Of a stretch of DNA of 64,000 nt, positions 1,107 to 60,645 are shown piece after piece. The notes under the pieces were generated by a model. The model worked only from the letters and a program-made list of their open reading frames with translations, made no database searches and was not told the origin of the DNA. The first letter of the stretch is position 1. Each line of letters opens with the position of its first letter. The position numbers were made by a program, and so were the translations under genes. The stretch is taken from contig JAWZYU010000019.1 of the NCBI GenBank assembly GCA_038380435.1, forward strand, positions 18,129,801-18,193,800, read 5' to 3'. Source of the stretch: Ryuthela nishihirai (taxonomy: Eukaryota > Arthropoda > Arachnida > Araneae > Heptathelidae).

Positions 1107-2462
1107 CCACAGAGCAGTGGTTCTCAAACTTTCCTATACCACTGACAACAAAGGTGTAGACTGTCAACCTAACACGGACCACCTACTTTGGCACCTCTTC
1201 CATTCTAGTACCAAAATGTAGGAAAAATGATTTAACAACTCATTAAAATGCATTGTCATCATAAAAACTTGTTATTAAAGTTATTTCATTGTAGAAAAGT
1301 TAAAAATAAATAAGAAAAAAGTGCTGGTTTTTATTATATTTCAAACCACAAAAGAGCATGGCAAACATTAAACAGAAAAGAACAAACCACATTATCAAGT
1401 TTTAGAACTAGGCATCTCAAATCAATGAAAATACTTGATGGCACAAAAGTCTGTACAAAATGTAATGCAAAAGAATCAACACCAAACCACATCTTTCGAT
1501 ATATAGGAGTCAATAAGAAAATAATTCAAGATGATGAACAAAAGTTAATAAGTGAATTAAAAAAATATAACCTCATGGAACTGTTTAAGACTAAGGGATA
1601 AGAAACAACAACAGCATAATTATTTTTAGAATTAAAATAGTATTAGCACATTTCAAGAGAGTAAATAAACGAATAAATTTTTTATTCTCCGTTTCAATGT
1701 GAAGAATGATGTTGCTTGCAATCTTTGACCAGTTTGGTTACATCAGGTGCAATGGAAGATATTTCAGTTTTAAGTCAGGGTCAACATTAAGCCTGTTCCT
1801 TTTGACACTTTTTTGTCCAACCAGGGCAGAAAATCCTATTTCACAATCGTACGTTGTGGGAAACGGTAGCAGGTGCTTGGTGGCATTGTTGGTGAGTTCA
1901 GGGTACTCTGATTTCACATGGATTCAGAAGTGTGTGAGGGATTTCTCACTAAACGCGATTTTCAGTGCTCCATCAGATGTCAATTCAATAAGCTGATCAC
2001 ACATACGAGCTGAAAGGCCGAAGGACTCAATCACAGATGCAGCACTGAAAAGATTCCTAATCCATTCCTTACTTTCATCAGGATCTGGAAAATATTTTTT
2101 ATGCTATCTTGCAGAGTTGTTATGTGGTTCTGAAATAATTGTACTAATTCATCATCGATTAGTTCTCCTGAACACTGCAAAAAAAAATCAAGTGCAGAAA
2201 ATGAATCATACTCCCAACGACCAAGCCGTTTAACTCCAAAGTTCACATTTCTGTAGAAATGCTTTTATTTTATCTTGCACTTTAAAAATGGTTACATCGC
2301 GCACCTGAAGTGACAGATTTAGGCTGTTCAGAATGCTGAAAACATCGCTGAGATATGTCAGCTGCGCTAGTCACTTGAAATCGTGGAAAAGAGATTTACT
2401 TACTTTATCAGTGTCATGAAGGAAGATCTTGATCTCATCCCTCAGTTCGAAAACTCTTGAAA

Positions 2463-2754
2463 GCACTCCGCAAAATTCCCCTCCCTGCTCACGGTCAGTA
2501 AGGAACACCGAAGACCCCCGTCCGTCGGATGGGACGTTAAGCCGTGGCTCCGTGTGCGGGAGAACCATACCTTTTGCACGTTAAGGAACACGCTAGATGG
2601 ACTTGACGGGAGGCTACCATCTGTCTCCCAACAGCTGTTCCAGTGGGTCCCTTCCCGAACCTTCTCTGAGCCTTCGGGGTCCATGTGACCTGGCCATTTA
2701 GCCCATGGTGTGCAAAAAAAGTGCCGCTCAGAGATAAAACAACTCAACCCAATT
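2463..2754 (+). mobile_element. SINE-B, 5'-truncated, inside the hAT
   Basis: Matches the full SINE-B at 45148-45545 from its 'CGCAAAATTCCCC' segment to the 3' end, including GGATGGGACGTTAAGCCGTG and TTTAGCCCATGGTGTGC, and ends in ACAACTCAACCC. It lacks the tRNA-like head. It separates the two halves of the hAT transposase. A short TTGAAA repeat (2457-2462 and 2755-2760) may be the target duplication. Confidence 0.88.
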
Positions 2755-3593
2755 TTGAAACCTCTTTCCCCCTTGACAACCACCGTACTTCGGTGTGGAA
2801 AAGTAAATTTTTATGCACACTTCCCATTTCTTCGCACAATACAATAAAAAGGCGAGAGTCCATTGACCGTAATTTAATTAAATTAACCACTTTAACTACT
2901 TGTTTCGATACAAGATCCAGTTCAGAAGGCATTCCTTTTATCGTTAACTGTTCTCTGTGGATAAAACAGTGAGTTGAACTACACTCTGGCACTAACTATT
3001 TTATCTTTTCTGTAAAACCCTTTCTTTTCCCAGACAAAGCTGGCGCACTGTCAGTACTGACTCCGACACATTTTTTCCAATCCAAATTGTGTGTTATGAA
3101 ATAATCATTAACCATACCAAAAATATCATCTCCTGTACTGTGAGTTTTTAAAGATAAACGAAACGAAACGTCATCATGAACTTCATTTTGGTAAATGTAT
3201 CTTACATATACTAAACGTTGACACAAGTTTTCTACGTCCGTGCTTTCGCGCAACTGTAAAGCAAAATCACTACTACCACGCACACGTGTGATTAATTGCT
3301 CCTCCACATTAGATACCAAAGATGTTATGCGACACTGAATTGTATCATTCGACAAAGGAATCTTGTCTATTGCTCGCCGTGCCTTTTTCCCCAAGCAAAA
3401 TATTCACCACCAATTTATCCGCTGGCTTTACAAGAGTTTCAGCGACGGTATGCCCTTGACGAGTTTTTGCTACAAGTAAAGCCACTTGGAATGATGCATC
3501 TGTAGTTTTCCTCTCTTCCGCACCCGTAGCAACAGAAGTCATTGATTTCTGTGATGACAGAATCACTTTACGTTTGTTTTGAAAATATTCAAC

Positions 3594-3752
3594 AACCGGG
3601 TTCGAGCCCCGGGTAAGGCATGGATGTGTGTCGTTTTTCTGCTGAGATCCTGCCATCCTCTCAGATCTTCTACTATGGCATATAAACTGACCAGGCTCCT
3701 GTCAGACCTCTGTGGCAAGCAGCTGCTTGAGGGGGTATTTAATTTTTTTTTT
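3594..3752 (+). mobile_element. SINE-A, 5'-truncated, inside the hAT
   Basis: Starts at the Pol III box B-like GGGTTCGAGCC of the tRNA-derived head and runs through GGCAAGCAGCTGCTTGAG to a T-rich end. The same sequence recurs near 18.7, 20.6, 25.5, 40.7, 53.4, 53.8 and 60.1 kb. It interrupts the hAT transposase just after the BED finger. Confidence 0.85.
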
Positions 3753-4162
3753 ATTTTGTGGGCCAAATCTGCATGTTTTGTTTTAAAATGCCGGAGAAAG
3801 TTTTGAAGGTTTCATCGCGTCGTTAGACAAAGTGTCATAGCACAGAACACAAAGAGGGTTAGGTGCAAGTTGGTCACCGGTCCAATAAAATCCCATTTTC
3901 AGATAATCTTTATCATATTTCCTGTTTACGCATTTCTTTTGTTTTTTCGCGATAACAGAGCAACTGGCTTGAAAACGATCGTCAATGATTTTAGTTTTAA
4001 CAGGCCCATGTGGAGTCGTATCGATTCCACTTATATTCCGTTTCAATAAAACACAATATGATAAACAATAATAATGCCCATGGTATACAATATTTAGGTA
4101 AACCCCACACACACAAAACACATAAGAATAACTAACTGCCGAAAGCAAAGGGCTACTCACTA

Positions 4163-4348
4163 CTGATGTGATTGCTCAAAAAAGTATCCGAACGCTATAT
4201 AGCTGATTACAGAATTCAGAAAAAATACCTGGCAGCGTCATGTGACACGAAGGTTGCCAGTTCACTAATTTCTCAAAAAATCGCTGCCAGATATTTTTTC
4301 TGAATTCTGTAATCAACCATAGCGTTCGGACACTTTTTTGAGTGACTG
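4163..4348. mobile_element. Small inverted-repeat element (Tc1/mariner-type MITE) inside the hAT
   Basis: About 65-bp arms are inverted: 'CTCAAAAAAGTATCCGAACG' near 4173 and its counterpart 'CGTTCGGACACTTTTTTGAG' ending near 4342. The arms also share GATTACAGAATTCAG and CTGGCAGCG. The right end is followed by TA (4349-4350) and the left begins beside TA (4161-4162), which fits a Tc1/mariner-type target. It has no coding capacity. It lies within the hAT, so it is younger than that element. Confidence 0.7.
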
Positions 4349-4703
4349 TACTTGCACATCCTTCAGCACATTTGACCTTGATGGCCCGAACCTCATGGCG
4401 GTGGAGTAGGTACACTCCCAGCTTAGTGCGATAGACCACTGTACACGCCGCTTATCTTAAAGTTGCACTACTTGCGTGTTACAAATACAGATTTTCTACA
4501 GAAAATTGGGAAAATTTCGCGGACCACCTAGGACCTAGCCACGGACCACAGTTTGAGAACCACTGCCATAGAGTGTGGCTTGTCGTGTCCCGAACCTGAG
4601 AGGTCTGCAATAAAAGATATTCACTTGCCATTATAAGGCTGCCACTAGTGGCTGATTCCATAATGACAGGATTTAGCATCCACAATCGAGGATAACTGAT
4701 CAG

Positions 4704-14581: not shown

Positions 14582-14619
14582 GGTGTAGCTATGGGGAGCA
14601 GCAACTCCCCAAAATGAAT

Positions 14620-15240
14620 CGTAGTTGGCAAAATTCGAAGCGATTTTGTAAAATTAAAAGCGATTTTGTAAAATTCAAATGAGTGGAGAAAATTTAGATT
14701 TTTTTGCTGTAAAATTAAAGGGAGTTAGCAAAATCTAAGGTAGTTGTCAAAATCGAGGCAACTTGGGAAAATCTAGGACAGTTGGTAGAATTCGAATTCA
14801 TTTGGTAAAATACAGGTGAATTAGCAAAATCTTGGGGAGTTTGCAAAATTCGAATCCACTTGATAAAATACAGGCGAGTTCTAAAAATTGGGATTGTTTT
14901 TGGGAAATTAAGGAGAGTTGGCAAAATCTAGAGGAATTGGGAAAATTGGGAAGCACTTGGCAAAATAATGCAAGTTTGCAAAATCTAGAAGAGTTCTTAA
15001 AATTTGAAGTGACTCGGCAAATTCAGGGAAGATGTAAAAATTTGGATTTGTTTTCTGTAAAATTAATGCGAGTTGGCAAAATCGAGGCAACTTGGCAAAA
15101 TCTTGAACAATTGAAAAAATTCAAAGCGCTTGGTAAAATACAGGTGAGTTGTAAAAATTGGGATTGGTTTTGTAAAATTAAGAGGAATTGGCAAAATCTT
15201 GTGGTGTTGGCAAAATTCGAACCCACTCGGTAAAAAAAGG
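14620..15240 (+). repeat. TTGGCAAAAT array 1 (~23-bp monomers, higher-order units)
   Basis: About 26 degenerate monomers of 21-25 bp carrying TTGGCAAAAT or close variants. A distinctive longer monomer, TGTAAAAATTGGGATTGG then TTTTGTAAAATTA, recurs at about 14880, 15034 and 15150. That gives a higher-order period near 116-154 bp. Stop-free frames here (Lys/Asn/Trp/Gln-rich) follow from the repeat and are not credible proteins. Confidence 0.85.
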
Positions 15241-19800: not shown

Positions 19801-20561
19801 ACGCACAAGACAGTGTGCTTTACTGCAATTTGGTACCCTGTGTACTAAAGAATCTTTCTCAAACCCAAACAGTATAACTTTCATGTAGGTTCTGGTATCA
19901 AAGTTGTTGTGCTTTCCTGCAGTGCAGCACCCCATAGGCTAAAAATCTTTCTCAAACCCGTTCATAACGTGTTTTTTCACAGATGTGTTCCATGGGTAGT
20001 GATCATTATCTCTATAGATTTAAATGTGAACCATAGAGTGCGTATCTCTTTGTATGAAATCGCTTATAATGAGACAATATTTCCTCTAAAAGTTGGAAGT
20101 TGTTAGTATGAACGGAAAAAGTGACGATATATACGCTATGTGATCGTTAAAATCAAACGTTAGCAAGGAATTTAATATATCGTTCCCTAGTTAGCGAGTC
20201 CGAAATTATTGTATCTTTAAAAAATAAATACGACTTCGCGCAGCTAATTGTCATTTAATTTTAATCCAAAAATGCACAGTAGAGTGCATTTCTGGGTGGC
20301 CAGTGCACACCCTCCACCTTCTGCCCACGCTACACAGCAGTCAGCGACGCATTTATACTCCCTAAGCCAACGAGATATCTTGGGCCGGGCAAAGACCTCG
20401 ACAGTAGCGGTGAACCGATGCTATATCGCCCGTACCTCCGACGGGCCACGACAGCATTCTGTTACCAAAATATTAGAGAATTATCATGTTATGTCAAATA
20501 GTATCTAACTTCAAAGATTTATAACTTTTAAAATACGGATTTAAAGGAAAATAAAAATAAA
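19801..20561. other. No feature recognised
   Basis: Contains an open frame at 20248-20508 (+) with no motif or codon evidence for function. Confidence 0.35.
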
Positions 20562-20675
20562 TATCCCCTGAAGCGACTGCTTGGCACTGAAGTCTGACAG
20601 GAGTCTGACAGCTTATACGCCATATTAGAAAAGGGATACGAGACCTCAGCAGAAAAACAACACAAACATGCAAAT
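20562..20675 (-). mobile_element. SINE-A fragment
   Basis: Minus orientation: GACTGCTTGGCAC, CTGACAGGAGTCTGACAG, CAGCAGAAAAACAACAC. Confidence 0.8.
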
Positions 20676-21583
20676 ATAACTAAAAATAAAGATCATAAAT
20701 CTATTGAAATATCAATTTTTCTGTAATGTCCATTCATTATGGTATGGAAGTTGGAATATTTAAATCATAACTTGCCTTTAATATTTTTGCATAACTTTTT
20801 TAGTGCAAAATTAAGTCTCACGAAGCTAAGAAGCTTGTTCGCATGAATACAAATTCAAAATAAATAATCCGCATGAATGCAAATTCAACAATAAATAATC
20901 CTGTTTTATAAAATCTGAAATTGTATAATATTAAAATAATCGTTAAACATGCTTCTAAAATATATATTTGTTAAATGGTTTTAACCAGGCCCGGATGTAG
21001 AAAAAAAAGGCAAGAGGGTACAAGAGCAAGCCGAAATGAACCGGAAAATCGTTCTAATATGCATTTTCTCTGTCGCTTTTCTGGCGTTTAGTAAATTTCC
21101 TGAAAAATGCGTTTGAGATTGTAGGTTTAATGCTTTTTTTTTTTCCTTTGTTCCATTTACTAAATTATGAAAAGTGGTGGGCAGCGTGTAAGAGTTAATC
21201 AGCACATAATATTAATAAAACATAAATAAAATAATCATTGAAATCTTAAAAAAGGATATCTGGAAAAATATTTAATTTTTCCAGAAATGCACCAAGATCT
21301 ACTAATCCAACCAACAGAGGGCGGCACCATTAACGAGCACATTCATTCCTGAATAATGCCTGAAACACGAACTTCCGTTTAAAAAGGACAATCTCTGTTC
21401 AACTTAAGATAATGTGTTTGCTACTTCTATGTTAAAATAATGCGAAAACAGAGAGAAATTGAGATAACATTTTATGCAATTCTTTAAAACAATATCGGGA
21501 TAAGAGGATAAAGATCTCACAACCTTGCGCGATTCGATTTGCCTGTAACTAAGTATTGTAGTTAGTCATCAAAATTTATAAGT
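20676..21583. other. AT-rich stretch, possible decayed foldback pieces
   Basis: A roughly 60-bp piece near 20700-20770 (CATTATGGTATGGAAGTTGG) is weakly like the arms of the foldback at 8181-8753. Nothing else supported. Confidence 0.3.
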
Positions 21584-24076
21584 CAGTGGTTCTCAACCTT
21601 TTATGCTTCACATACTCCCTGGAAATGTGTATGTAACTGGCGTACCCCTTGTATAGATAGATAAAACTATAGTTATAGTATAACAATGGGAATAAAATAA
21701 AACATATATATCAGTGGTTCTCAACCTTTTATGCTTCACGTACCCCCTGGAAATGTGTATGTAACTGGCGTACCCCTTGTATAGATAGATAAAACTATAG
21801 TTATAGTATAACAATGGGAATAAAATAAAACATATATATCAGTGGTTCTCAACCTTTTATGCTTCACGTACCCCCTGGAAATGTGTATGTAACTGGCGTA
21901 CCCCTTGTATAGATAGATAAAACTATAGTTATAGTATAACAATGGGAATAAATTAAAACATATATATCAGTGGTTCTCAACCTTTTATGCTTCACGTACC
22001 CCCTGGAAATGTGTATGTAACTGGCGTACCCCTTGTATAGATAGATAAAACTATAGTTATAGTATAACAATGGGAATAAAATAAAACATATATATCAGTG
22101 GTTCTCACCCTTTTATGCTTCACGTACTCCCTGGAAATGTGTATGTAACTGGCGTACCCCTTGTATAGATAGATAAAACTATAGTTATAGTATAACAATG
22201 GGAATAAAATAAAACATATATATCAGTGGTTCTCAACCTTTTATGCTTCACGTACCCCCTCGAAATGTGTATGTAACTGGCGTACCCCTTGTATAGATAG
22301 ATAAAACTATAGTTATAGTATAACAATGGGAATAAAATAAAACATATATATATCAGTGGTTCTCAACATTTTATACTTCACGTACCCCCTGGAAATGTGT
22401 ATGTAACTGGCGTACCCCTTGTATAGATAGATAAAACTATAGTTATAGTATAACAATGGGAATAAAATAAAACATATATATCAGTGGTTCTCAACCTTTT
22501 ATGCTTCACGTACCCCCTGGAAATGTGTATGTAACTGGCGTACCCCTTGTATAGATAGATAAAACTATTGTTATAGTATAACAATGGGAATAAAATAAAA
22601 CATATATATCAGTGATTCTCAACCTTTTATGCTTCACATACTCCCTGGAAATGTGTATGTAACTGGCGTACCCCTTGTATAGATAGATAAAACTATAGTT
22701 ATAGTATAAGAATGGGAATAAAATAAAACATATATATCAGTGGTTGTCAACCTATTATGCTTCACGTACCCCCTGGAAATGTGTATGTAACTGGCGTACC
22801 TATTGTATAGATAGATAAAAGTATAGTTATAGTATAACAATGGGAATAAAATAAAACATATATATCAGTGGTTCTCAACCTTTTATGCTTCACGTACCCC
22901 CTGGAAATGTGTATGTAACTGGCGTACCCCTTGTATAGATAGATAAAACTATAGTTATAGTATAACAATGGGAATAAAATATATATATATATCAGTGGTT
23001 CTCAACCTTTTATGCTTCACGTACCCCCTGGAAATGTGTATGTAACTGGCGTACCCCTTGTACATATAGATAAAACTATAGTTATAGTATAACAATGGGA
23101 ATAAAATAAAACATATATATCAGTGGTTCTCAACCTTTTATGCTTCACGTACCCCCTGGAAATGTGTATGTAACTGGCGTACCCCTTGTACAGATAGATA
23201 AAACTATTGTTATAGTATAACAATGGGAATAAAATAAAACATATATATCAGTGGTTCTCAACATTTTATGCTTCACGTACCCCCTGGAAATGTGTATGTA
23301 ACTGGCGTACCCCTTGTATAGATAGATAAAACTATAGTTATAGTATAACAATGGGAATAAAATAAAATATATATATCAGTGGTTCTCAACCTTTTATGCT
23401 TCACGTACCCCCTGGAAATGTGTATGTAACTGGCGTACCCCTTGTATAGATAGATAAAACTATTGTTATAGTATAACAATGGGAATAAAATAAAACATAT
23501 ATATCAGTGGTTCTCAACCTTTTATGCTTCACGTACCCCCTGGAAATGTGTATGTAACTGGCGTACCCCTTATATAGATAGATAAAACTATAGTTATAGT
23601 ATAACAATGGGAATAAAATAAAACATATATATCAGTGGATCTCAACCTTTTATGCTTCACGTAAAAATACGTCACGTACCCCCTGGAAATGTGTATGTAA
23701 CTGGCGTACCCCTTGTATAGATAGATAAAACATGTATATCAGTGGTTCTCAACCTTTTATGCTTCACGTACCCCCTGGAAATGTGTATGTGACTGGCGTA
23801 CCCCTTGTATAGATAGATAAAACTATTGTTATAGTATAACAATGGGAATAAAATAAAACATATATATCAGTGGTTCTCAACCTTTTATGCTTCACGTACC
23901 CACTGGAAATGTGTATGTAACTGGCGTACCTCTTGTATAGATAGATAACACTATAGTTATAGTATAACAATGGGAATAAAATAAAACATAGATATATAAC
24001 ATATATCTAGAAACTTTTGAGCTCTCACGGCATACCACAAAAACTTTTACAGCATATCCCACGTTCAGAACCCCTA
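21584..24076. mobile_element. hAT-like element whose left terminus is amplified into a 19-copy, 128-bp satellite
   Basis: Each unit begins CAGTGGTTCTCAACCTTTTA, a typical hAT terminus, and includes two GCGTACCCC/CGTACCCCC motifs and an AT-rich end. Units start at 21584, 21712, 21840, 21968, 22096, 22224, 22354, 22482, 22610, 22738, 22866, 22993, 23121, 23249, 23377, 23505, 23633, 23740 and 23868. Spacing is 128 bp except for 130, 127 and one rearranged 107-bp unit (23633). After the last unit the sequence ends in ACGTTCAGAACCCCTA (24061-24076), a diverged inverse of the left end. The flanks TTATAAGT (21576-21583) and GTATAAGG (24077-24084) share six of eight bases. Units are nearly identical. 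It is non-coding; the recurring 68-codon minus frames are products of the repeat. Confidence 0.85.
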
Positions 24077-24084
24077 GTATAAGG

Positions 24085-24537
24085 TATCAAAAGATATCTC
24101 ACTGTGGCAAGTGGGTTCATAATTATTGGAAAAGTCGTAAATATTTTATGTTCAACCAAAATTAAGATACTTATATATCAATTACTAATCAGTTTAGAGA
24201 TTTGCGGTTTGGGCCATTTTGAAATTTTTAGTACAACCTTTAAGGTAATAAAAATCCAAACAAAAAAGAGAGTCTTTAATTTAGTCTATTTGTTTTTATT
24301 TTATTGAAATAAATATTAACCTTGAATATTTTAAAAAACTGCGCGTCTAAAATTATGCAAAATATTTATGACACCCTTCAATCTTTGAGCCGAAATTTGA
24401 ACTTGGAAAAGGCTTTTTCTAATGCTTTTTTTTTTGTCTTAAAAATGGTTTTATTGATTTGCAGGGTTAATAATAGTCGATTAATTTTTGATTAATAATT
24501 GACTTAATAATAAACCTCATAGATAAAACCATCTGAC
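24085..24537. other. No feature recognised
   Basis: AT-rich; no gene, RNA or repeat supported. Confidence 0.35.
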
Positions 24538-25435
24538 CAGGGGCTTTGCGGGGGGGGGGAATCGAAAATTTTCCAACTGGAAAATCAGATTTTGCCAACT
24601 GACAAAATAATGTCTGTCAGATTTGTACCTAGATTTTCGCTCCGTAGGGGGTGGGGGGGGTAGGGAATTTTCACAAATCTCCTTCATTTTGTCATGTAAC
24701 TTGAAATTTTTAACACATTTTCACAGACATATTTTCACAGAAATAATCCCAAAATTTTCCCAACTTCCCTTGATTTGGTCAACTTTCCTTAATTACACGA
24801 AACCAATCCCAATCTTTACATCTGTCCTAAATTGGCCAAGTCACTTCAAATTTTTCGAACTCCCCAAAATTTTGCCAAGTTTTCTCGATTTTGTCAGCTC
24901 TTCTTAAGTTCATAAAAACAATCCCAATTTTCGCAACTCGCCCGTATTTTACCAAGTGGATTCGAATTTTGCCAACTATCCTAGATTTTGCTAAGTTTCT
25001 TCGATTTTGCCAACTCACCACAAGTTTACAGAAAAAACTCCCAATTTTCACATCTCACCTAATTTTTGCAATCACTCCCGAAGATTTACCAACTCTCCTA
25101 GAATTTGCGAAGTTGCCTCGATTTTGCCAACACGCCATAATTTTACAGAAAAAAGATTCCAATTTTTACATCTTACCTGATTTTTGCAGTCACTCTGAAT
25201 TTCGCCAATTCTTCTAGATTTTGCGAAGTTCTCTCAATTTTGCCAACTCGCCATAATTTTACAGAAAAAAAGATTCCAATTTTTACATCTCACCTGAATT
25301 TTCCCAACTCTCCACGATTTTCACGAGTCACTTCGAATTTTGCCAACTTCCCAAGATATTGCCAAGTCACTCCGAATGTTGCTAACTCCCCAAGATATTG
25401 CCAAGTCACTCCGAATTTTCCCAACTGCCCCTAGA
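24538..25435 (-). repeat. TTGGCAAAAT array 2 (inverted relative to array 1)
   Basis: Begins CAGGGGCTTTGCGGGG (24538). It then has AATTTTCCAACTGGAAAATC, which is close to the inverse of the right end of array 1b near 16960. Monomers read ATTTTGCCAA on the plus strand. The long marker monomer (TTTACAGAAAAAA... CCAATTTTTACATCTCACC) recurs at about 24790, 24905, 25022, 25140 and 25256. This is a higher-order period of about 116 bp made of roughly five monomers. Confidence 0.85.
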
Positions 25436-25455
25436 TCCCTATCCCGAAAGGAAAA

Positions 25456-25657
25456 AAATACCCTCTCAAGCAGCTGCTTGCCACAGAGGTCTGACAGGAA
25501 CCTGTCAGTTTATATGCCGTACTAGAGGGTCTGAGAGGATGGCAGGACATCAGCAGAAAAACAACACAAACATCCATGCCTTACCAGGGCTCGAAACCAG
25601 GTCCTTTAGATCAGGAAAAAAGCGCGCAAACCACTCTGCCACAGAGAGCCCTAAAAA
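25456..25657 (-). mobile_element. SINE-A, most complete copy
   Basis: Read on the minus strand it starts with GGGCTCTCTGTGGCAGAGTG, a tRNA-like head with a box A-like TGGCAGAGTGG (25631-25641) and a box B-like GGTTTCGAGCC (25588-25598). The spacing suggests a tRNA with a long variable arm, Ser/Leu-type. The body follows and the 3' end carries CTGACAGGTTCCTGTCAG and CAAGCAGCTGCTTG, both self-complementary. It finishes in a short T-rich run. No protein is encoded. Confidence 0.88.
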
Positions 25658-27013: not shown

Positions 27014-28290
27014 GTAGGTTACTTGTAAATATTTTAATGAATAATTTGAGTACCAAATGTCATTTAGACACCAAGAGTTAAATTTTAAAGGCAATTTTTT
27101 GAATGATGAACAAAGAGTGAAGTCACATTTGAAGCAAACTACTAAACAATATCTGTTTGACGCAACAGTATCTGTCTCCGTTATTATCGAAAGAAACATT
27201 GTTCAGTATTTTTCTTAAACATTTCCTTCTGATCCAGCATTGCTGACGGCAGACATGTTGAGTGTTTCCTCAGCTAGAACTTATTTAATGATTGGAGGAA
27301 GGCAACGAACGCAGGGAGTTAAGAGGTAGGAATAGATTTACGAAAAACACTTTAAAAAATTTAGAATTATAATGCTGATATGAATAATTATTAGTATTAA
27401 CGGTCCATTGCTAGTTATTTTTCGCCATTATTATTTGAGAAGAGAAGGCTTTTTTTAAAGCAGTTCTGATGGTAGCTAGAATATTTGAATGAATTGTAAA
27501 AATTTTAGAATGTTCTAATTGAATCCAGTTAATTATTACAATTTGTCAAACAAAATGGTTTATCAATATTTAGTCGTCAGCTTAAAGAATGTTAAAAAGA
27601 TCAATTTAAACATGCTGCACATTAATTGTTACTTAATAGCAATAGGCTCTCATAATTATTTTAATTTGTATTTAGATGTAGTACCAAAATCTCACCACTT
27701 CTATCCATCACTTGCTAAGTCGGGTTTGACTCGAGCGAATTATTTCTTTAGCAAGTATTAATTTTCCACTGGTGTTTGTAAGCCCGAATATTATGAAAGG
27801 GAAGTGGTGTGAGAGATTGTGTTACGCCATGTTAGGTAATTGAATTACAGGTGGAGCACGCGACCATAACAACACTGCAACATACTACTACTAGGGGCAC
27901 AATAGTTAATTTCGCCGCGTTTAATGTTTATTGCCTTCAAGGTAGTTCCTCTGTATTATCTTAGTCATTTTAACGTTGACAAAAATTGGCGTAAACGGCG
28001 TTATGCTTAGGAAAGACAATTAAAATTTCTCACATGCACATCTATAGAGCACGTGAGGCTTAGCAAGTCATAATCGTTTTAGTTGAAAATATCTTGTTTG
28101 TGTTTGTCAGCTTTATTGATAGTTTTTTTGTCACCTTTATCAGTAGATCTTCTTGACCCCTTTAATGCATATGTTCCTGTCAACTTTATTCCTAATTTTT
28201 TCTTGTTTACCTTATTGCAAATTGTTCTGGGAGGGTTTTTTTTATCTAGTTGTTCTCATCACATTTATTCGTAGTTAGTGAAAGGACAAA
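27014..28290. other. No feature recognised
   Basis: AT-rich sequence; open frames at 27519-27761 and 28083-28274 (+) have no recognisable domain. Confidence 0.35.
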
Positions 28291-29430
28291 ATTACCAAAA
28301 GCGACTGAGAATGTGGGGCCACACTCCATAAACCTGTCATATATAAAACAAGTATGGACAGAAAGTAACGCGAGCAGGGGGATCGAGATTATGAGGCTCC
28401 AGAAATCGGTCCTTTAAACAAAAAATGCATATATATGGTGAAAAAAAAGAAAACAAAAAAATGGCTAGAAAGGGATCGAGATTACGGTGCTTCAGAAATC
28501 GGTCCTCTGAAAAGTGAAAGAGGTAAAAATTACCAAAAGCGATTGAGATTGTGGGGCCACACTCCAGAAACCTGTCATATATAAAACAAGTATGGACACA
28601 AAGCAACGCGTGCAAGGGGATCGAGATTATGAGGCTCCGGAAAACGGTCCTTTAAAAAAAATGCATATATATGGTGAAAAAAAAGAAAACAAAAAAATGG
28701 CTAGAAAGGGATCGAGATTACGGTGCTTCAGAAATCGGTCCTCTGAAAAGTGAAAGAGGTAAAAATTACCAAAAGCGACTGAGAATGTGGGACCACACTC
28801 CAGAAACCTGTCATATATAAAACAAGTATGGACACAAAGCAACGCGTGCAAGGGGATCGAGATTTTGAGGCTCCAGAAATCGGTCCTTTAAAAAAATATG
28901 CATATATATGGTGAAAAAAAAAGAAAACAAAAAAATGGCTAGAAAGGGATCGAGATTACGGTTCTTCAGAAATCGGTCCTCTGAAAAGTGAAAGAGGTAA
29001 AAATTACCAAAAGCGACTGAGAATGTGGGGCCACACTCCAGAAACCTGTCATATATAAAACAAGTATGGAAACAAAGCAACGCGTGCAAGGGGATCGAGA
29101 TTATGAGGCTCCAGAAATCGGTCCTTTAAAAAAATATGCATATATATGGTGAAAAAAAAAGAAAACAAAAAAATGGCTAGAAAGGAATCGAGATTACGGT
29201 TCTTCAGAAATCGGTCCTCTGAAAAGTGAAAGAGGTAAAAATTACCAAAAGTGACTGAGAATGTGGGGCGACACTCCAGAAACTTGTCATATATAAAACA
29301 AGTATGGACACAAAGCAACGCGTGCAAGGGGATCAGATTATTTGATTCCAGAAATAGGTTCTTTATGTAAAAAAAAAATGTGTAAATGGGATCGAGATTA
29401 CGGGGCTGTTGAAATAACATAAACTGTTAG
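28291..29430. repeat. 238-bp satellite, five units, each of three related ~79-bp parts
   Basis: ATTACCAAAAGCGACTGAGA begins units at 28291, 28529, 28765, 29003 and 29241; the last is degenerate. Within each unit three parts are similar. They are AGCGACTGAGAATGTGGGG...CCAGAAACCTGTC, GGATCGAGATTATGAGG...CCAGAAATCGGTC, and GGATCGAGATTACGGTG...TCAGAAATCGGTC. Minus-strand frames (DRFLE...RNLDP) span units but change frame because 238 is not a multiple of three. Confidence 0.88.
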
Positions 29431-60377: not shown

Positions 60378-60645
60378 CCCTAGATCCCTCCTCCCCCCTC
60401 TCCCTAGATCCCTCCTCCCCCTCTCCCTAGATCCCTCCTCCCCCTCTCCCTAGATCTCTCCTCCCCCTCTCCCTAGATCCTTCCTCCCCCTCTCCCTAGA
60501 TCTCTCCTCCCCCCTCTCCCTAGATCTCTCCTCCCCCCTCTCCCTAGATCCCTCCTCCCCCTCTCCCTAGATCTCTCCTCCCCCCCTCTCCCTAGATCCC
60601 TCCTCCCCCCTCTCCCTAGATTCCCTCTCTCCTCTCCCTCCGGTT
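60378..60645. repeat. Polypyrimidine minisatellite, 23-26-bp unit, 11 copies
   Basis: Unit CTAGATCCCTCCTCCCCCTC plus TCC; CTAGAT recurs 11 times. One strand is almost purely C/T between the CTAGA marks. Confidence 0.95.

Follow-up and report, generated by a model that had tools for sequence, protein, structure and literature searches.

How does a small transposon that lacks a transposase come to hold 19 tandem copies of what looks like its own left end, closed by a single right end? The question arises at 21584-24076 of a window of 64,000 nucleotides (the whole stretch analysed here, C19:18129801-18193800) in the 3.11 Gb assembly of Ryuthela nishihirai, which comprises 1680 contigs. An earlier note on this DNA had read the locus as an array that grew inside a transposon from one end. 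Comparison with other copies of the same insertion bears out the note's description of the array and its ends and argues against growth of this kind, since a base found at position 68 in 21/21 single-unit sister copies occurs in 1/19 window units, and the units are of a type found genome-wide.

A tandem array bracketed by the two ends of one element

The array (21584..23995, plus strand) consists of 19 head-to-tail units, each opening with a hAT-type end, and is followed by one right end. The left terminal inverted repeat CAGTGGTTCTCAACC, seen first at 21584..21598 (plus strand), begins every unit; it is exact in 13 of the 19 and within one mismatch in all of them. Units start at 21584, 21712, 21840, 21968, 22096, 22224, 22354, 22482, 22610, 22738, 22866, 22993, 23121, 23249, 23377, 23505, 23633, 23740 and 23868 (plus strand), a spacing of 128 bp with one exception each of 130, 127 and 107 bp. 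The 107-bp unit (23633..23739, plus strand) is rearranged and carries a private 26-base motif. TRF agrees with this parse, reporting the array at 21583-23731 and 23725-23995 with a period of 128 bp and matches of 96% and 95%. Judged from the assembly alone, the array may contain an assembly error.

The last unit continues into an 81-bp right end present in single copy (23996..24076, plus strand), which finishes with GTTCAGAACCCCTA and is of local type, as in the sister copies described below. Its tip reads TAGGGGTTCTGAACG on the reverse strand (at 24076). The window contains this sequence once, even with two mismatches allowed, so a right-hand terminus follows the last unit alone and the two ends of a single element enclose the array, as the earlier note had proposed. 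The flanks TTATAAGT (21576..21583) and GTATAAGG (24077..24084), putative left and right target-site duplications, agree at 6/8 positions and share an identical TATAAG core.

Other repeats lie nearby. Inverted copies of a TTGGCAAAATC-rich tandem region at 14600-15220 and 24750-25440, about 10 kb apart, flank the array region on both sides, most of the arms listed being 70-83% alike. Further tandem arrays occur at 28288-29365 (238-bp period, 4.5 copies, 95%) and at 60378-60632 (23-bp period, 10.7 copies, 93%).

The repeat unit represents the left end of an abundant hAT MITE family

The 3.11 Gb genome contains 103,281 exact copies of the tip CAGTGGTTCTCAACC (52,269 forward and 51,012 reverse). 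This exceeds chance by far, because a reversed control of the 15-mer gives only 0 and 1 occurrences. If every tip represented 128 bp the total would come to about 13 Mb, an arithmetical figure in which the tips of single elements are included. High copy number and head-to-tail arrays of 3-63 units at several of the loci read make the unit a satellite, in keeping with the earlier note's view of a terminus turned satellite.

We searched the genome for the right end, allowing up to three mismatches to the window's own 32 bases, and obtained 294 + 288 places. Of these, 69 were read, the window array excluded: 51 hold one unit, 12 lack a recognisable left end and 6 have at least three units. Elements with a single unit and the same right end, which the earlier note had proposed to look for, are thus the commonest form among the places read; the window's own site accounts for 5 of the 51. 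Most single-unit elements measure 175-310 bp; some are longer, and one has 122 bp. Forms of about 200 bp that carry 8-bp duplications are frequent. The family's right end is mostly GTTGAGAACCCCTA. Unshifted duplications match at 8/8 positions in 21/51 elements and at 7/8 or better in 34/51. In a first set of 25 elements the target-site pattern is NTNTARAN, and the two flanks of an element match on average at 6.04 positions against 3.94 for mismatched pairs, the own-pair mean being lowered by mis-anchored left flanks at L013 and L015.

Tips of hAT elements follow the rule YARNG. The present family has terminal inverted repeats at both ends (left CAGTGGTTCTCAACC, right TAGGGGTTCTGAACG on the reverse strand) and 8-bp duplications at the level of the family, the window copy itself reaching 6/8. 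At one locus (L047), the family's left end lies about 230 bp from a broken open reading frame that matches the hAT dimerisation domain PF05699 (E 5.6e-05, 23.3 bits, cutoff 21.4), which places the unit at the hAT terminus lying 3' of the transposase gene. L047 yielded no right end, so this relative is incomplete, and we count it as an end-sharing coding relative through its left end alone. Together with the terminal repeats and the NTNTARAN duplications, it upholds the assignment to hAT, with the unit forming the left end of an abundant MITE family. Over the first 118 bp, single elements have the same majority sequence as the young arrays of the window, C32 and C1_85. Viral contigs and bacterial and archaeal genomes gave no exact match to degenerate unit patterns, and phages no blastn match to the unit.

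The window holds a second hAT-like element at 1115-4565, with perfect 16-bp terminal repeats CAGTGGTTCTCAAACT at both ends and flanks CCACAGAG/CCATAGAG that are 7/8 alike. We considered it as a parent of the array and rejected it: what it has in common with the unit is the tip alone, 16-18 bp with one mismatch. Its minus-strand open reading frame pieces resemble, as we take it, ZBED-type hAT transposase. Two of the pieces were scanned without a Pfam match at 0.001, and one, rescanned up to E 1, gave DUF6062 alone, at 0.11.

Sister copies of the host repeat carry the same insertion with one unit

The element in the window is an old, transposase-less hAT MITE, about 209 bp long with one unit, which sits inside a host repeat. 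Alignments to two sister loci (L014 and L032) place this repeat approximately at 20459..25546, an extent in which one alignment ended with the fetched stretch. Three loci from the first right-end matches, L014, L032 and L033, carry the window's insertion: each has one unit, flanks like those of the array and almost the same imperfect duplication. A genome search with the 300 bp left of the array returned 25 matches, or 23 copies after two split ones were merged. The MITE is present in 23/23: 21 copies have one unit, the window has 19 and a copy on C14 (L092) has 24. None of the 23 copies found by this left-flank search is an empty site, and the MITE insertion therefore probably preceded the spread of the host repeat.

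The right flank GTATAAGG recurs at sister copies, and the left flank TTATAAGT in some of them (L032, L033, L090, L091 and L092). The 6/8 'duplication' around the array, correctly noted earlier, is therefore an old feature of the site. By their flanking sequence, the window groups among the single-unit copies in a poorly resolved tree, in which L033 has a long branch (its left flank is mostly interrupted) and from which L032 and L108 were left out. This same-site comparison with true single-unit sisters covers one insertion site.

Both edges of the array are resident and its middle is of genome-wide type

Four positions in the unit distinguish the sister copies from the window array. Position 68 is A in 21/21 single-unit sister copies (20 from one parse, and L033, mis-anchored there by a loose pattern, from two others) against 1/19 window units, namely unit 16, which could be a local remnant. 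In single-unit elements at other sites (n=42) it is G in 36 and A in 3. Position 106 is A in 7/21 single sister copies and in 0/19 window units. The pair 29A and 33T occurs together in 5/21 sister copies (L032, L033, L089, L091 and L095); in the window, 29A is carried by units 1 and 9, and 33T by units 1, 5 and 9. Position 29 lies in a CpG context, and positions 33, 68 and 106 do not.

The first and last units combine the two types. Both carry G at 68 and 106. At 29 and 33, unit 1 has A and T where the last unit has G and C, yet the last unit ends in CATAG; its end, CATAGATATATAAC, is also found in L032, L033 and L089, and with one change in L091. These four sister copies, with the CATAG end just past the unit, all carry 29A, 33T, 68A and 106A. 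From the contrast between edge and inner bases, we conclude that both array edges are resident and that the middle is of the genome-wide type. The 5' part of unit 1 (21584..21616, plus strand) is of the local type, its 29A and 33T common to five sister copies. A left switch then falls at 21616-21651, between unit positions 33 and 68. The genome-wide, or 'foreign', tract occupies 21651..23973 on the plus strand, opening at position 68 in unit 1 and reaching position 106 in unit 19; a right switch follows at 23973-23991, between unit positions 106 and 124.

Judged by their bases, the window units match arrays on other chromosomes better than they match sister copies of the same relic. Two window units, 2 and 4, have exact counterparts on C32, as units 6 and 8 of the array there.

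Young units lie within old ends

The inner units of the window differ from the consensus by a mean of 1.7 substitutions over about 120 bp, two of them by none; a slightly different parse, which treats the window array as cut at the left, gives 2.17. Single elements differ by means of 7.0 (n=19) and 7.2 (n=42), and the 21 sister copies by 4-11. The array is thus young or homogenised, as had been suggested from its low divergence. Inner units elsewhere give 1.55 (C32), 1.67 (C1:85.6 Mb) and 3.2-3.3 (a C14 array, read to 63 units). Between the window and C32 arrays unit divergence is 3.3%, similar to that within the window (3.5%) and within C32 (2.7%).

The right halves of seven array elements carry 16 substitutions in 219 bp, about 7%, and the outer element is therefore old. 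Over the 32 bp of the right end, array elements (n=4) average 3.0 substitutions, against 2.5 in 26 single or left-less elements. Young inner units within old outer ends indicate a fresh source of units, because neutral homogenisation lowers the differences between units and not their distance from the ancestor. Given the majority sequence common to single elements and young arrays, the family source seems to have hardly changed while single copies drifted by about 6%. In five of six rankable arrays the last unit is more diverged than the inner mean; the three-unit L065 shows the opposite, its last unit being the least diverged, and the ranking takes L084 as one unit, though eight are seen in another parse.

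Arrays at other loci change length in place

The second expanded sister copy (L092 and L109, C14:21989469-21996500) has 24 units, of which 18 carry 68A. Its left block holds further shared changes, 32A in 17/24, 100G in 16/24 and 105A in 11/24 units, a pattern that fits growth from the resident unit followed by homogenisation. Units 19 and 21-24 are near the family consensus, and with the local left block they make L092 itself a mosaic; neither the right end nor the right host flank was found in the stretch read.

At a second site, arrays with alike flanks at 0.22, 0.71 and 0.75 Mb of C1 hold 6, 3 and 15 older units. On C14, a 63-unit array (L036, L040 and L046, C14:64203700-64215702) contains an 18-unit block duplicated almost unchanged, with a mean difference at a shift of 18 units of 1.65% against about 4%. 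In-place length change is common among the arrays read.

Several further features were seen at these and neighbouring places. The insertion site on C1 is repeated within 2 Mb (0.22-1.97 Mb; L001, L002, L004-L008, perhaps L042 and L044), with arrays of differing lengths whose older units are mostly 121-129 bp long. The flanks of the 63-unit C14 array, CTTTAGAG and TTCTAGAC, each fit the target pattern and match each other at 5/8 positions, as if derived from two insertions. L045 (C1:6853000-6857000) has two arrays in opposite orientation, of 9 and 15 units, with right-end sequence between them. At about 6.876-6.902 Mb of C1, tip matches in a single orientation extend over about 26 kb or more among the matches listed, which suggests a very long array.

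Origin of the window array

The reading that we favour, at a probability of roughly 60%, is that foreign units replaced the middle of the resident MITE by ectopic recombination or conversion and were later reshuffled in place. Four other origins have to be weighed against it. Growth in place, in which replication slippage or unequal exchange would have multiplied the resident's left end, draws on the one left and one right end that bracket the array, on length changes elsewhere (the 18-unit block on C14, the 3-15 units at the C1 site) and on L092, which looks local with 68A in 18/24 units. The window's bases contradict it: all 21 single copies have 68A, and those most like the window add 29A, 33T and 106A, whereas 18, 17, 16 and 19 of the 19 window units lack 68A, 29A, 33T and 106A, respectively. 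The inner mean of 1.7 is moreover nearer the consensus than any sister copy (4-11). Barring reversion or near-complete later conversion to the genome-wide type, these site-specific bases largely refute growth in place, which we consider unlikely. We find it slightly harder still to credit that a young MITE or array-bearing element transposed into the resident's AT run, lost its inner right end by recombination and then grew. The inner units are indeed young, and the inner junctions fall at the tip, mostly directly after ATATATAT, a sequence that suits the measured target preference and fits the hAT target pattern at most positions. Such an insertion predicts a wholly local unit 1, whose positions 68 and 106 are in fact of the foreign type. 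An exact search for ATATATAT directly behind a right end gave 15 places, some of them clustered on C130 and C204. Among the seven isolated matches, the four that were read proved to be ordinary single MITEs in unrelated AT-rich DNA and not MITE-in-MITE intermediates, so that nested insertion as the founding event gains no support from them. At up to two mismatches the pattern of this search matches 79,772 places, presumed to be mostly array junctions.

That the array is ancestral at the site and the single-unit copies are contractions is very unlikely. Contraction would join the start of unit 1 to the end of the last unit, which is how the single copies look, and arrays do change length; it would be required, however, in 21/23 copies across several flank groups (of the poorly resolved tree), only 5/21 sisters share the 29A and 33T pair of unit 1, and the inner units are young, with 1.7 substitutions against 4-11. 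Least probable of all, in our estimation, is that arrays move as units, excised and reinserted by hAT transposase, and that the window element is one such transposed array. In its favour, both ends of the element survive in several arrays, the genome contains related transposase sequence, and a duplication of 7/8 surrounds the 15-unit array at C1 0.75 Mb, so that transposition may have occurred at that locus. For the window this origin is refuted by an insertion common to 21 single-unit copies, with a duplication of 6/8. The right halves of seven arrays also differ, measuring 209, 211, 301, 394, 198, 199 and 214 bp from the start of the last unit to the end. Duplications match at 6 of 8 positions in the window, 2 in C32 (where the first tip is altered), 5 in C14, 5 at C1:85.6 Mb, 6 in L065, and 6, 5 and 7 at three copies of one C1 site; at least 7/8 is thus reached in 1/8 array elements (1/6 sites) against 34/51 single elements. 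Counted by site, 1/6 against 34/51 gives a one-sided Fisher p of 0.027, which is approximate as some of the 51 share a site. The earlier note's suggestion that array pieces might be mobilised is accordingly not favoured.

Replacement of the resident's middle could have proceeded as follows. A break or stalled copying inside the resident unit would have been mended with an array at another locus as template, through ectopic recombination or gene conversion and possibly via a circular intermediate. Several units may have been imported at once, or a few that then multiplied, and copying would have rejoined the resident sequence at a later point, so that the first and last units became hybrids. 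Unequal exchange afterwards could have carried the variants of unit 1 to unit 9 and made the private 107-bp form. The base pattern is what suggests the import step; its route, and the number of units per event, we infer. Integration of a circle by a single crossover predicts equal switch points, and the two intervals, 33-68 and 106-124, do not overlap; for the final state this variant fails unless later conversion followed.

No donor array was identified for the window units. The private 26-base motif of the 107-bp unit, sought in the genome with up to two mismatches, matches the window alone. Rare variants shared between the window and all other young arrays number 7 with 3.8 expected (p 0.056); by pair, the window with C14 (p 0.04) and C32 with C1_85 (p 0.02) stand out, and four other pairs are not enriched. 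Since the private motif is unique and variant sharing is at most weakly above chance, most of the variation in the window array probably arose after its arrival. We also considered shared rare variants as a sign of exchange between arrays. With old arrays the window shows enriched sharing (p 0.001), but so, to the same degree, do single elements (p 0.0016). Mutable sites would account for this, and we conclude nothing from it on exchange.

More tentatively, single-unit MITEs may in general act as homology landing pads, into which a satellite of their own tip is copied and not transposed; we regard this as possible, and likewise that the copying takes the form of conversion, template switching or circle integration. 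If true, landing pads would explain the one common junction and the near-identical units at unrelated arrays, each of which has its own old right half and flanks. The window locus suggests that tandem repeats can spread by copying into existing relics.

Comparison with known systems

Movement of satellites between chromosomes is often inferred from similarity alone. The window offers one insertion in 23 found copies, 21 of them unexpanded, so that seeding, growth and reshuffling can be separated at a single site. As the genome contains about a hundred thousand tips, a comparison of this kind could be attempted at other sites.

A parallel by description is found in Atlantic cod, where the non-autonomous hAT elements gadMor-hAT-1784 and gadMor-hAT-8043 carry tandem units of 167-169 bp; the repeats reach several thousand bases, one terminal inverted repeat is preserved, and they are tied to inversion breakpoints (PMC12368964). 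The window element resembles them as a non-autonomous hAT element with tandem units, a likeness of description and not of unit sequence. It differs from the parts of the cod account examined here in having same-site single-unit sisters and foreign inner units (PMC12368964). In Xenopus, Xstir and miDNA4 are satellite-bearing MITEs; Xstir is derived from the terminal inverted repeat in one review and from internal MITE sequence in the other, and miDNA4 is a Tc1/mariner MITE with an internal satellite (PMC9659126, PMC12628747). As in the sections of these reviews that treat them, the window's monomer occurs singly or in arrays of variable length, and MITE, array and composite forms coexist. The window element is of hAT type and has a transposon tip in each unit.

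The same asymmetry, one terminus repeated and the opposite one single, is seen in Helitron arrays, where many 5' ends accompany one 3' end (Xiong et al., as cited in PMC12628747). Unlike in rolling-circle Helitrons as that review outlines them, the ends and 8-bp duplications here are of hAT type, so that this route is not directly applicable. The transposon hobo belongs to the hAT superfamily. It has expanded to 16 tandem copies (McGurk and Barbash, as cited in PMC12628747) and is thus, like the window element, a hAT element amplified in tandem; the review's wording has copies of the transposon, whereas the window repeats the left 128 bp alone.

Satellites from MITE ends and growth in place have been reviewed (PMC9659126, PMC12628747), and the portions of the literature covered by our search hold no report of same-site single-unit sisters with diagnostic bases. 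Related in process are the intermediate arrays of Cg170/HindIII in oyster and Rsp-like repeats in 1.688 arrays of Drosophila (PMC12628747, PMC7919458), arrays which, in the passages that describe them, are proposed to recombine with, or to have inserted into, existing repeats. The window is like these cases in that respect and unlike them, so described, in offering a fixed site at which 21 sisters are unexpanded and diagnostic bases tell resident parts from foreign ones.
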